This document shows positions 13,229-22,375 of a DNA stretch of 64,000 nt, in pieces. The DNA is from Haliea sp. (GTDB taxonomy: Bacteria; Pseudomonadota; Gammaproteobacteria; Pseudomonadales; Halieaceae), in the NCBI GenBank assembly GCA_002692965.1, contig NZNC01000005.1, positions 124,001-188,000 of the forward strand, written 5' to 3'. Under the pieces are notes generated by a model, which did not search any database, was not told where the DNA came from, and saw only the letters and a program-made list of their open reading frames with translations. The first letter of the stretch is position 1; each line of letters begins with the position of its first letter. Made by a program: the position numbers and the translations under genes.

Positions 13229-13305
13229 GGGGGTATAGCTCAGCTGGATAGAGCAACGGCCTTCTAAGCCGTGGGTCGAGGGTTCGAGTCCTTCTACCCC
13301 CGCCA
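13229..13305 (+). tRNA. tRNA-Arg (anticodon TCT); integration site
   Basis: Acceptor stem GGGGGTA/TACCCCC, anticodon stem ACGGC/GCCGT with loop CTTCTAA, T-loop TTCGAGT, encoded CCA. Its 3' 49 bases (from the anticodon stem to CCA) recur at 22312-22360 as the far end of the integrated element, so the gene remains intact at the left end. Confidence 0.97.
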
Positions 13306-13320
13306 CTAAACCCCTGAAAA
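13257..13320 (+). repeat. Left attachment repeat (attL)
   Basis: 64 bases identical to 22312-22375 except for one position (C at 13306, A at 22361). The first 49 bases are the 3' part of tRNA-Arg and the last 14 (TAAACCCCTGAAAA) lie downstream of the tRNA. Confidence 0.95.
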
Positions 13321-13354
13321 ATAAGCGATTTCTGGCTAAGTCTGCCGAAGTCTA

Positions 13355-13391
13355 TAAGTCCAGTTCGCCCCGTAAGTCCACAGTAAGTCCA
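13355..13391 (+). promoter_or_regulatory. Arm-type integrase site array next to attL
   Basis: Three TAAGTCCA-type repeats; the last two are GTAAGTCCA at 13372 and 13383, 11 bases apart. Weaker AAGTCT copies lie just before. The same nonamer occurs twice beside the integrase gene at the other end, as expected for integrase arm sites. No binding data. Confidence 0.6.
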
Positions 13392-13422
13392 TATCGCGCC
13401 GCGAAATACCGGGGGTGCCGTC

Positions 13423-13704
13423 ATGGATAAAGCAGCGTATCGGGTTCGCGCCAGCCTGTTGGCGAAGGCAAAGAAATACCGCGCCAGGTATCCCAGCATC
13501 CCAAGTGGGGCCGGGGTGGTGGTCATCAATCGCGAGGGCGTGGCCGCAGGGTGGATGAACGAGCTCCGCGACCCCGAAGGGTGGGTTCCCGGGTGTCGGG
13601 CTGTCGATGCGGGCGGGGCTGTCTGGATCGCCAGGGGCGGCGATGACTACAACGGCGCTCGGGAATGGGTGGCCCTGCAGCACGGGGTCGCCAGTCATGG
13701 ATAA
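13423..13704 (+). CDS. Hypothetical protein of the element (93 aa)
   Basis: A 93-residue protein not recognised. It opens with a basic stretch (MDKAAYRVRASLLAKAKKYRARYP) and then looks like a compact alpha/beta domain (VVVINREG, WVPGCRAVDAGG, DYNGAREWVALQ). It is the first gene inside the left end, on the + strand, and its last codons overlap the start of the next gene by 8 bases. Those two genes face the rest of the element. A DNA-related role is possible from the basic N-terminus but is not established. Confidence 0.55.
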   Translation: MDKAAYRVRASLLAKAKKYRARYPSIPSGAGVVVINREGVAAGWMNELRDPEGWVPGCRAVDAGGAVWIARGGDDYNGAREWVALQHGVASHG

Positions 13705-14035
13705 AGATATTGCCTTCCTCCTGGAACAGTGGGCCCGCTGGTGCTATGTCGAGCGCGGGGTGCAGCTTGGACTGCCTCACCAGACACCTTTCCGGCGCCT
13801 CCTGGGCTCGACAGTGCCTTCGGCCTGCATCAGTGACCCATTGGCCCAGGCCATCGACCAGGCGGTCGCGGAGGTCTGCCAGCGCAATGAAAAGATCGGG
13901 CGGGTGCTGGTCCCGTACTTCCTGCAGGGCAGGACCACGGTGCAGATCGCGAAGAAACAGGGGGTGAGCCGGCCAACAGTGTCAAAGCGGTTGGCGCTGG
14001 GGGTGTCGATGGTGGGGGAGATACTCGAGAGGTAG
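13697..14035 (+). CDS. Small HTH protein, phage Q/sigma-region-4-like regulator
   Basis: A 112-residue protein whose last 45 residues form a helix-turn-helix of the sigma-70 region 4/ArpU-like kind: YFLQGRTTVQIAKKQ, then GVSRPTVSKRLALG. The N-terminal part (LLEQWARWCYVERG) resembles the opening of phage antitermination-like regulators. ATG 13697 is chosen since the longer in-frame version would overlap the preceding gene fully. In phages such proteins control late transcription. Here it could control the element or sense a helper; that is inference. Confidence 0.6.
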   Translation: MDKDIAFLLEQWARWCYVERGVQLGLPHQTPFRRLLGSTVPSACISDPLAQAIDQAVAEVCQRNEKIGRVLVPYFLQGRTTVQIAKKQGVSRPTVSKRLALGVSMVGEILER

Positions 14036-14073
14036 GGTGTGGCAGGTTCCCACCCGTATCCGAAGCCTTTATT

Positions 14074-20081: not shown

Positions 20082-20282
20082 TCAGGCGCTCCGCTTGCCG
20101 GCCTCGAGACAGGCGCGCTCTTGTTCTTCCGTGATGATGGTTCGGCGGCCCAGCTTGGTGGTTTCAAGCTCACCCCGGGCAATCATGTTGTAGACGGTGG
20201 CCCGACTGATTCCCCAGCGTTCCGCGAAAGCCGCGATGCTTCGCGGGTGCGGTTGAGGGGGTGCGGGTTCTTTCGTGGTCAT
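20082..20282 (-). CDS. AlpA/excisionase-like HTH protein
   Basis: A 66-residue winged HTH of the MerR/AlpA kind: RSIAAFAERWGISRATVYNM, then IARGELETTKLGRRTIITEE. In P4-like satellites and PICIs such proteins activate int and excision. It heads the replication operon, after an 84-base gap downstream of the int-orf166 pair that probably holds its promoter. Confidence 0.78.
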   Translation of the reverse strand: MTTKEPAPPQPHPRSIAAFAERWGISRATVYNMIARGELETTKLGRRTIITEEQERACLEAGKRSA

Positions 20283-20366
20283 TGGTCTAGCTCCGTTGCC
20301 TTTGGCTTACGGGGCTAGACTAGGGCGGGGGTAGGGTTGCGGCTTCCTCGTTTTCTTCGAAGAAAG

Positions 20367-20867
20367 TTAGGACGTGAGTTTTTGCAGCTCGGCGGCAATT
20401 TCCCGGTCACGTTCAAATCGCTCCCGTGAGAAGTCGTGCTTGCGCTCTTCGATCTCATCCAGAATAGACTGAATGCTCCAGAGTCGCCGGCTGTACCGTT
20501 GGTGTGCGTAATACTGCCGATCGATAGTCGCCTTGCTTCTGTGAAGGCGGTCGCCGATTTCCTCAAACTGTGAGTGAATATCGCCTTCGCGGGGAGTCAG
20601 GTGTACCAAGTCCGCGACAAGGGGGTCGAATGTCTGGCGCTTCGTACCCTCTGGGTTGAACATGGAAGCTGGTGTCTTGGTGCCGTCTATCACCTTGCGC
20701 ATCTCGCTGGCGACAAATCGGGCCACTTTGGCGGGAACCGGCTGCCCGCGCTCCGTGCTTACCGCGAATAGGTCAAAAATCACGGTCGTGGAATGAGTGT
20801 TCCCGCGCTCAGCGTCATACAGCAGCGCTGGGACTGGGTAGCCAAGATAGGTGTGGTGCACTTTCAC
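20367..20867 (-). CDS. Hypothetical protein of the element (166 aa)
   Basis: A 166-residue protein with GTG start overlapping the integrase stop (GTGA), so it is translated with the integrase. The N-terminal half is beta-rich (STTVIFDLFAVSTERGQPVP); the C-terminal half is helical and charged with a possible HTH (GDRLHRSKATIDRQYYAHQR). GC is lower than in the integrase gene. Not recognised; it could modulate integration or repression. Confidence 0.6.
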   Translation of the reverse strand: MKVHHTYLGYPVPALLYDAERGNTHSTTVIFDLFAVSTERGQPVPAKVARFVASEMRKVIDGTKTPASMFNPEGTKRQTFDPLVADLVHLTPREGDIHSQFEEIGDRLHRSKATIDRQYYAHQRYSRRLWSIQSILDEIEERKHDFSRERFERDREIAAELQKLTS

Positions 20868-22150
20868 GCTTCACCCCCAAAAACTTGCCGGATGGCGTCT
20901 TCCTTGTGGCTGGGGCTCAGGTGGGCATACACCAGCGTCATCTTGATGTCGGAGTGGGTCATCAGCTCCCGGACGGTATTGAGGGGCACCCCGGCCATCA
21001 CCAGGCGGCTGGCGAAGGTGTGGCGCAGATCGTGGAAGCGGAAGTCCTCGAGGCCGGCGCGCTCGACCAGTCCTTCCCATGCCTTCTTGATGTTGTCCAT
21101 GGGGCCGCCGGTGACGGGGGAGGGGAACACCAGGCCGGCGGCGGGCTTGCCGTGCTGATCGTTCCACTTGCGCAGCGCCTGCATGGCCTCGTTCGATAGG
21201 GGCAGGACTGAGGGCGCCAGGGCGTGGTTTTTTCTCCGGGTCTTGTTGATGACCTTGCGGATCTGGCGGTTATTGAAGTCGACGTGGCCCCATTCCAGGG
21301 TCAGCAGGTCGCCGCGGCGCAGGCCGGTATTGAGCGCCAGCAGCACGATGGGTTGAAGGTGGTCAACGTAGCCGGCCGGGTCGATCTCCGGCGCCAGCGG
21401 CTTGCCCCGGGCCTTCTGCCAGGCGCGCATGCGCTCCCGGGCTTCCCTGATCTCGTTCTCTCGCGCCGCCAGCGCCTCTCTGAGGGCGGTTTCTTCCGCT
21501 GGGCTCAGATACCGGGGGCCGGTCTGTTTCTTTGCCTGCAGCTGTTTGGTGTCGCGGGTGAGGGTGAATCCCTGCAGCTGGTGGCTGGGGATCAGGCGAT
21601 GCACCTTGATGGCGGTGGTCAGGCAGGCCTTGAGGTAGGTCAATTCGCGCTGCAGTGTCTCGAAGCTCACCGGCTTGTCGCTGCTCGCCTTCTTCCGGCG
21701 CCAGCGTTGCACGTCCATGGGGGTGATCTCTGTCATGGGGCGGTCGGCCAGGTGCCCCCAGTTGCGTTTCAGGCGGCGGAGCAGGTCCTTGTGGGAAATG
21801 ATGTGCTGCTCGGCGTACTCGGTATAGGCGCCCTCGAGGTACTTCCCGAAGCGGGTCGAGCGGGCGGTCTTTTCCTCGGCATAGGGGTCGGTCCCTTCCT
21901 CTGCGGTCGCGCTGGCGCTCTTGGCCAGGGTGCGGGCTCGCCTCAGGGTCATCTTGTCGGCGTTGCCCAGGACCTTGCGGGTTTTCTTCCCGGCGACCAG
22001 GTAGACCACCACCCAGGACTTGGCGCCGCTGGGCTGGACGCGGAGCAGCAGGCCCGGTTGGGTGGCGTCGCGTAGCTCGTAGGGCTTTTCCTGGGGCTTG
22101 GCTCGCGTCACGTCATGGATGGTGAGCGCCTTTGCAGTGCGTTTTCCCAT
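20864..22150 (-). CDS. Tyrosine-type site-specific integrase
   Basis: A 428-residue phage-type integrase. A DUF4102-like N-terminal arm-binding domain (ELRDATQPGLLLRVQPSG) is followed by the SAM-like core-binding domain (about 110-220) and the catalytic domain. Catalytic residues: Arg in LNTGLRRGDLL, the HDLRHTFASR box, and Tyr in VYAHLSP. The gene lies 161 bases inside the right attachment repeat and reads inward. It should catalyse integration at tRNA-Arg(TCT). Arm-type GTAAGTCCA sites lie just upstream of its start. Confidence 0.93.
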   Translation of the reverse strand: MGKRTAKALTIHDVTRAKPQEKPYELRDATQPGLLLRVQPSGAKSWVVVYLVAGKKTRKVLGNADKMTLRRARTLAKSASATAEEGTDPYAEEKTARSTRFGKYLEGAYTEYAEQHIISHKDLLRRLKRNWGHLADRPMTEITPMDVQRWRRKKASSDKPVSFETLQRELTYLKACLTTAIKVHRLIPSHQLQGFTLTRDTKQLQAKKQTGPRYLSPAEETALREALAARENEIREARERMRAWQKARGKPLAPEIDPAGYVDHLQPIVLLALNTGLRRGDLLTLEWGHVDFNNRQIRKVINKTRRKNHALAPSVLPLSNEAMQALRKWNDQHGKPAAGLVFPSPVTGGPMDNIKKAWEGLVERAGLEDFRFHDLRHTFASRLVMAGVPLNTVRELMTHSDIKMTLVYAHLSPSHKEDAIRQVFGGEA

Positions 22151-22163
22151 GGCCTGAAATCCC

Positions 22164-22184
22164 GTAAGTCCATCCGTAAGTCCA
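22164..22184 (+). promoter_or_regulatory. Arm-type integrase sites beside int
   Basis: GTAAGTCCA at 22164 and 22176, the same nonamer as beside attL, within 35 bases upstream of the integrase start. They could bind integrase and also repress its promoter. Confidence 0.58.
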
Positions 22185-22311
22185 TTTTGATTGTATTACT
22201 CTGGACCCCCGTCTACAATGCTAGACTTACTGAGAAAGGAAAAATGTAGCAAAAATAGGGAGATAGGAAAAAATGGTCGGATTTTCAGAAACTTGGGGAA
22301 TGGCCATAAAG

Positions 22312-22375
22312 CGGCCTTCTAAGCCGTGGGTCGAGGGTTCGAGTCCTTCTACCCCCGCCAATAAACCCCTGAAAA
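22312..22375 (+). repeat. Right attachment repeat (attR)
   Basis: Copy of the tRNA-Arg 3' end plus 14 downstream bases, identical to 13257-13320 apart from one base. It lacks the tRNA 5' half and so is not a functional tRNA. Confidence 0.95.

Follow-up and report, generated by a model that had tools for sequence, protein, structure and literature searches.

The DNA analysed here is a 64-kb stretch of Haliea sp. contig NZNC01000005.1 (positions 124,001 to 188,000), called the window; all coordinates are those of the window unless another locus is named. It carries an island, with a unit of 9,055 bp, inserted in a tRNA-Arg(TCT) gene of its Halieaceae host. The original prediction described this element as a compact phage satellite. 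The tRNA gene (13229..13305, plus strand, identified with ARAGORN) has its 3' end covered by the left attachment (att) repeat, attL (13257..13324, plus strand). The right copy, attR, is found at 22312..22379 (plus strand). The copies form repeat family D2 and are 68 nt long, 97% identical and 9,055 bp apart; the direct repeats first described as 64-bp are thus borne out. An integrase gene (int, 20864-22150) adjoins the right copy, as had been proposed. The G+C content of the island is 0.62, compared with 0.63-0.66 for the flanks.

On the minus strand, starting from attR, the genes encode the integrase, a 166-aa protein, an AlpA-like regulator, a 72-aa protein, a CHC2 protein, an AAA_25 protein and three small proteins. 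Next are p90, p75, cc183, p80, a prohead protease, a terminase small subunit (TerS) and a DUF4145 protein. An antitermination-Q-like gene is on the plus strand, nearer the tRNA gene than the minus-strand genes.

The six minus-strand genes from p90 to TerS form a block. The first product, p90 (17023..17253, with a conserved start at 17253), gave sub-cut-off Pfam matches only and none in PHROG or NCBIfam. It is followed by p75 (16786..17013), predicted to be a three-helix protein (pLDDT 86.5, pTM 0.53), and by cc183 (16238..16789), modelled as a long helical protein with helices at 21-55 and 58-145 (pLDDT 83, pTM 0.55). The p80 gene is at 15986..16228. The fifth gene (15474..15989) encodes an HK97-type prohead protease of 171 aa, which is near the catalytic core alone (PF04586, 3.5e-41; TIGR01543, 1.2e-31). 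Several PHROGs labelled 'major head protein' also match, over the same protease stretch. The protein begins at the core: the N-terminal extension of three aligned phage and satellite proteases is absent and, in the alignment, HK97 gp4 has 225 aa. A Ser and a His run are kept at or beside H65 and S140 of HK97 gp4, which we take to be the catalytic positions. Sequence searches of solved structures gave no match at 0.01 for the protease and only a chance-level keratin match (0.083) for cc183.

The sixth gene encodes a P27-type TerS (14869..15285), which matched phrog_83 (3e-16); Pfam and NCBIfam matches were below cut-off. Both head and packaging genes named in the original prediction, the protease and TerS, are therefore real. 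The TerS open reading frame (ORF) extends to 15477. From the sequence, the start is most likely 15285, because homologues begin there and GGAG precedes it. Hence, a 188-nt gap follows the protease gene, and a 4-base overlap of the TerS and protease genes is probably not real. Other predicted 4-base overlaps, of int with the 166-aa protein gene (GTGA) and of p80 with the protease gene (ATGA), do hold.

We searched for the protease in 140 genomes of the family. Matches at E<=0.001 were obtained in six and, in three, own genome included, identity was 74% or more. The two other records are DIAF01000045.1 (Halieaceae bacterium UBA5085, a metagenome-assembled genome) and NZ_JACFXU010000013.1 (Sediminihaliea albiluteola F7430); their islands are designated L068 and L069, respectively. 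L068 is in tRNA-Arg(CCT), with a 53-nt att repeat (100% identity) and a 9,035-bp unit. L069 occupies tRNA-Ser(GGA); its unit measures 7,305 bp and its repeat is exact over 17 nt. The search for the same gene order in related genomes, suggested at the outset, was thus successful: the six-gene block occurs in the same order in all three islands, with 47-80% identity. Identity to the sister proteins is 70-75% for p90, 51-64% for p75, 62-70% for cc183, 71-80% for p80, 72-79% for the protease and 47-64% for TerS. Both sisters have the layout int-AlpA-...-block-TerS-tRNA. The integrases, conversely, are 31-32% alike over their aligned parts (65 residues only in L069). The AAA_25 protein is common to the window and L068 only.

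We compared nonsynonymous and synonymous substitution (dN/dS) between the islands. Of the 18 NG86 comparisons, eight were saturated; in the ten for which dS was finite, dN/dS was 0.07-0.21. YN00 gave values of ~0.08-0.22 (6 of 18 comparisons), and the ratio for the protease was about 0.1. Most finite dS values exceed 1 and are near saturation, a point against our reading. Judged from these substitution patterns, the six-gene block is under purifying selection, as a maintained module and not debris. We conclude that at least three islands in Halieaceae probably form one family of satellites resembling phage-inducible chromosomal islands (PICIs) of the cos type.

Wider searches returned few relatives. 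No TerS relatives were confirmed in genome contigs, and none of cc183, p80 or p90 in viral contigs. Searches for cc183 in plasmids and phages, and for p90 and p80 in phages, gave none. In a non-exhaustive sample of 369 genomes of the class, cc183 was found in its own genome only. A similar sample of 390 genomes of the order yielded p90 in its own genome and two marginal matches in frames of >800 aa. Separately, L069 has a 49-nt partial tRNA copy (98%) and a 139-nt direct repeat (97%) at 11281-11763, near tRNA-Ser; both may have been left by additional integration events.

The scan of 18 island ORFs brought up no recognisable capsid, portal, large terminase (TerL), tail or lysis protein, in agreement with the original prediction. 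Two matches with virion labels, integrase to phrog_1650 (0.08) and p90 to Pre_tape_measure (0.018, under cut-off), are at chance level. The capsid, portal, TerL and connector proteins of two reference elements gave no tblastn match in the 64-kb window. One is LR881103, classed as a capsid-forming PICI from its gene list. The other is a prophage of genome G018 (locus L101, 4667-16409), from a Halieaceae member of the same genus as UBA5085. Its genes HNH-TerS-TerL-portal-protease-capsid are consecutive; we read the ORFs after capsid, by their length and arrangement, as connector, tail and tape-measure genes.

Missing virion genes might be elsewhere on the chromosome, an outcome that would have spoken for a split prophage. 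We looked for them and found none: PF05065 (capsid), PF03354 (TerL), PF04860 (portal) and PF03237 (Terminase_6N) had no match in the three island-host genomes. PF05065 was searched in eight genomes, including the three hosts, and the others in three each; this genome-wide search covered capsid, portal and TerL families, not tail families or HNH. Two of the eight genomes matched PF05065, neither an island host, and each of the four families was detected in 3-6 of 14 control genomes. All three hosts are draft assemblies, with a completeness of 98-99.98% and contig numbers of 31, about 50 and about 20; the window's own genome is the one with 31 contigs and is 99.98% complete. As none of these families matched in the three hosts, the islands are not split prophages. 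At protease loci that are not islands, portal, capsid or TerL is beside the protease in 21 of 25. In 51 + 11 viral protease loci, many on short contigs, tblastn (1e-3) detected no other block gene. The other four of the 25 non-island loci (L065, L066, L067 and L076), in related genomes, show only the protease in 2.8-3.4 kb and could be further capsid-less elements.

We considered whether the island might be the inert, decayed remnant of an HK97-type prophage, or of a capsid-forming PICI, from which the capsid, portal and TerL genes have gone. Such an origin would be in keeping with the protease, which has relatives at about 39-48% identity in prophages of the HK97 type and in capsid-forming PICIs, with the 32% identity of its TerS to that of the G018 prophage, and with the lack of a capsid gene. 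Conversely, a block under purifying selection occurs in the same order in three islands at three sites. The frames are open, with int and an AlpA-type gene in all three, and a cos-like region is kept without HNH or TerL. Furthermore, the protease-then-TerS order differs from the TerS-TerL-portal-protease-capsid order of HK97 and, of the four genes preceding the protease, the three sought in phage records were not found there. Decay is thus very unlikely and, with two sisters sharing the block, collapse of a full prophage is disfavoured.

A putative cos site is located upstream of TerS (15310..15383, minus strand), where there is a weak match to a phage cos profile. The sequences preceding TerS in the three islands can be aligned with one another and with the HNH-TerS intergenic region of the G018 prophage. 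The alignment of L068 with the prophage scored 86 (best of 300 shuffles, 29), with 65 of 77 columns identical. Scores were 82 for L068 with L069 (shuffles 25-26) and 44 for L069 with the prophage (shuffle maximum 27). A 17-mer common to L068 and the prophage is present in 35 IMG/VR stretches. An HNH gene starts <=600 nt upstream in 18 of these and a TerS gene <=260 nt downstream in 10; either is the case in 19 of the 35. In the HK97 and D3 records, which we take to start at cos, HNH is the last gene near the end and TerS the first gene. The same layout is seen across their ends: a G-run, TCAA, ~25 nt, ACCGC, the record end and a T-run. In the window, the G-run, spacing and T-run are present. 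We built a cos profile from 18 of the contigs with the 17-mer, HK97 and D3. In each of the four sequences scanned, the highest match fell upstream of TerS, with scores of 41.2 bits for L068, 36.8 for the prophage, 10.6 for L069 and 9.1 for the window. The next-best match in the 64-kb window scored 4.4 bits.

Several results weigh against a cos site of this type, above all in the window. The window region scored 32 with the prophage (1 of 300 shuffles equally high), 26 with L068 (1-3 of 300) and 20 with L069 (10-17 of 300). It has TTGG for TCAA and ACCA for ACCG, words common to L068, HK97 and D3. Its profile match is weak (E 0.17; best of five shuffles, 7.2 bits), and the L068 score is partly circular, the profile phages having been selected with the 17-mer of L068 itself. 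When the islands were compared with seven other phage or PICI regions, 1 of 21 comparisons beat all shuffles (L069 with L095, 28 vs 26). A second pattern was drawn from that half of the L068/prophage site which is on the side of the cut. Of 17 viral stretches with this pattern, one, the prophage itself, had it in an HNH/TerS-type position. This figure gives a background rate and indicates that exact conservation of the cut-side half is not widespread. A blastn search of phages with the L068 region gave no match. Predicted RNA folding of the TerS leader did not outdo that of shuffled sequences in the window or in L068; the z value for L069 was -1.6. Overall, an HK97/D3-type cos beside TerS is clear in L068, moderate in L069 and weak in the window where, taken alone, position and a weak score hint at it. 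Papers are cited here by PMC number, each for the excerpts available. For HK97, TerS is described as recognising cos, at a site 15-29 bp past the cut with an A-tract, and TerL and HNH as taking part in cutting (PMC11331095); HNH stimulation of cos cutting is cited in the same source.

The remaining genes are mostly of integration, regulation and replication type. The tyrosine integrase (20864..22150, minus strand) has 428 aa (PF00589, 2.8e-31; PF13356, 7.2e-14). The 166-aa protein (20367..20867, minus strand) had Pfam matches below cut-off only and none in PHROG. The AlpA/excisionase-like regulator (20082..20282, minus strand) matched HTH_17 (1.6e-8), phrog_575 and, at 28.3 bits against a 28.8 cut-off, TIGR01764. 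It did not match PF05930, the AlpA family found for the gene after int in both sisters. The 72-aa protein (19861..20079, minus strand) has homologues in both sisters. The CHC2 zinc-ribbon, primase-type protein (19385..19864, minus strand) matched phrog_6088 and PF01807 (2.1e-5; 24.7 bits, marginally under the 24.9 cut-off). The AAA_25/DnaB-like ATPase (18204..19388, minus strand; PF13481, 8.3e-36) is a helicase candidate, 56% identical in L068. The regulator, primase-like and helicase genes of the original prediction are thus supported. L068 has AAA_25 and NrS-1 polymerase HBD as replication genes.

Three small proteins are encoded at 17818-18255, 17555-17821 and 17311-17595 (minus strand). 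Two of the three genes are related at the DNA level (repeat family D1, 70% alike over 114 nt). At the opposite end of L068, positions 8785-9078 encode a 34% relative of the third. The DUF4145 protein (14074..14820, minus strand) matched PF13643 (2.6e-10), phrog_1305 (8.3e-35) and PADLOC PD-T7-4 (1.2e-10), and may be anti-phage defence cargo. The antitermination-Q-like regulator (13607..14035, plus strand) matched PF06530 (6.8e-10) and phrog_79 (1.3e-14).

An empty tRNA-Arg site had been proposed as a check. None with both flanks was found among the related Halieaceae loci, from either flank. The tRNA cluster had some match in 140 genomes, and loci, with flanks of ~1.5 kb or less, were built for the best 30, own included. 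Of the 29 others, all had tRNA-Pro and tRNA-His, 26 tRNA-Arg, 28 FolD and none SRAP. The right flank matched in 54 of 140 genomes, own included. None of the 29 other loci examined had tRNA-Arg; in four, an SRAP-like match was near a different tRNA gene. The SRAP gene immediately right of attR (22516-23294) is duplicated, at 89% identity, on contig C19 of its own genome, and an additional 73% stretch is elsewhere on contig C7.

We compared the islands with known systems. Features of Gram-negative PICIs are present: an integrase at one end with a specific att site, in the sisters also; an AlpA/MerR-type regulator near int; a primase-replication module; TerS and a helper-like cos signal, weak in the window; and no structural or lysis genes, the protease excepted. 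The likeness to PICIs of the EcCICFT073 type (PMC6092414, PMC6739421, PMC10111431) thus extends from int, the AlpA-type regulator and replication genes to cos-type packaging with no virion or lysis genes needed. EcCICFT073 is described in these excerpts as being without TerS and using Rpp on helper TerS, whereas the islands have their own TerS and cos. Further differences are the prohead protease block, the HK97-type rather than lambda-type cos, the Halieaceae host and a size of 7.3-9.1 kb, compared with 10-20 kb (PMC10111431).

The island falls outside the capsid-forming PICIs, the P4-like elements and PICMI. The window island has no capsid, portal, connectors, TerL or HNH of its own, and is not a capsid-forming PICI. 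The head, packaging and tail module of a complete HK97-type prophage was not found. We take sid, psu, delta and the alpha primase-helicase to mark P4-like elements; none appeared in the general Pfam and PHROG scans of the 18 ORFs, in which they were not sought by name. For PICMI, there was no DUF3987/DUF5906 primase match and the site is tRNA-Arg, not fis. The claim that this gene set is outside any named family therefore stands. Likenesses remain. Capsid-forming PICIs (as defined in PMC10690885; LR881103) share int, an AlpA-like regulator, a primase, a protease (46% identical) and TerS. PICMI (PMC10803314) shares int with a 4-base overlapping gene, AlpA, a primase-type gene and compactness; the island differs in carrying TerS and the protease.

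Satellites with late phage genes, protease included, are already known. The TG93 satellite plasmid of Vibrio crassostreae (PMC13230959) has a head maturation protease and TerS, with no portal or TerL listed in the excerpt. TG93 differs in having capsid protein E, a plasmid form, a MerR-like regulator and no integrase detected. The small int-AlpA-primase satellite AH14b of Pseudomonas sp. ANT_H14 (PMC4936722) similarly lacks structural genes and is packed as ~trimers in helper heads. For AH14b, the excerpt reports no terminase found, proposes headful packaging and names no protease. Staphylococcus aureus pathogenicity islands of the cos type with Ccm (PMC5052747) have, as here, a gene homologous to one of the helper's head genes; the heads that they redirect are those of a cos phage whose capsid protein is delta-domain-like. 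Ccm is a capsid homologue, whereas the island has a protease instead. The open-licence literature and the sequences searched (p75 was not sought alone) yielded no other case of a conserved protease without capsid, of an own TerS beside an HK97-type cos, or of the small genes that accompany them.

The island probably belongs, with at least two others in Halieaceae, to a family of PICI-like cos satellites that use the heads, tails, TerL and HNH of a helper, select their DNA with a TerS of their own and direct the protease block at the helper head. The satellite logic is well supported by the att repeats, int, AlpA-like and replication-type genes, TerS and the lack of recognised virion genes. Mobilisation by a helper, induction and the role of the protease are what we infer. 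Two results are unfavourable: no helper phage was found, and no replication family was recognised in the five L069 ORFs scanned. The G018 prophage could represent the helper type. In our model, an infecting or resident HK97-type cos phage would induce excision and replication of the island, and supply heads, tails, TerL, HNH and lysis. Island TerS would bind island cos, steering packaging to island DNA. Helper TerL and HNH would cut and pack this DNA into helper heads, either small heads or full heads holding concatemers. The units of 9.06, 9.04 and 7.31 kb would give ~36 kb as 4, 4 and 5 copies; three unit lengths prove nothing, and concatemers are as open as small heads. Concatemers have been reported for a Gram-negative PICI (PMC10111431) and AH14b (PMC4936722).

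In HK97-type phages, the protease removes the scaffold (delta) domain of the capsid protein (PMC12749128, PMC5052747). Therefore, a satellite protease could change the timing or the course of head maturation, or else spoil the heads of the helper. In our model, the protease, with cc183 and p75, would alter or secure maturation of helper heads with delta-domain capsids, favouring the island and probably harming the helper. Together with an own TerS acting on a helper-like cos, this would be piracy by proteolysis, not scaffold or capsid mimicry, a proposal that we make tentatively. A scaffold role for cc183 and p75 is a guess drawn from the structure models, because neither matches a fold (none at E<=0.001, viral structure library only). 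That result, and the lack of similarity of cc183 to the N-terminal 121 residues of the prophage capsid protein, do not favour such a role.

The protease may instead be a passive passenger of an ordinary PICI-type satellite, like dispensable capsid genes. Gram-negative PICIs do often carry late genes, mostly capsid (21 of 29 reference PICIs), that are not required for transfer (PMC10111431). We regard this as unlikely for a protein that is among the best conserved of the block in all three islands, has a dN/dS of about 0.1 and keeps the Ser and His run. Alternatively, the protease and helical proteins could be an anti-phage weapon, cleaving helper proheads prematurely, and not a head-size device. 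A protease with no stretch before the core and with fewer residues than HK97 gp4, beside possible defence cargo (DUF4145), would suit this role, which we find possible if doubtful. By sequence, it is inseparable from head redirection, and the two can coincide, as for Ccm (PMC5052747).

The devices by which satellites are known to manipulate heads are scaffolds, capsid homologues and other capsid-size factors: Sid, Psu, CpmA/CpmB, Rcm, TcaP and Ccm, in the excerpts cited. If our proposal is true, the islands would act on this step by other means, with a conserved protease and no capsid. Broad literature searches turned up no PICI-like satellites in Halieaceae among the papers matched, and such elements are now placed in this family. 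The islands, and a full Halieaceae prophage with a cos like that of one sister, make a concrete candidate pairing of satellite and helper. Taken together, the islands appear to be a hitherto undescribed branch within a known type of element.

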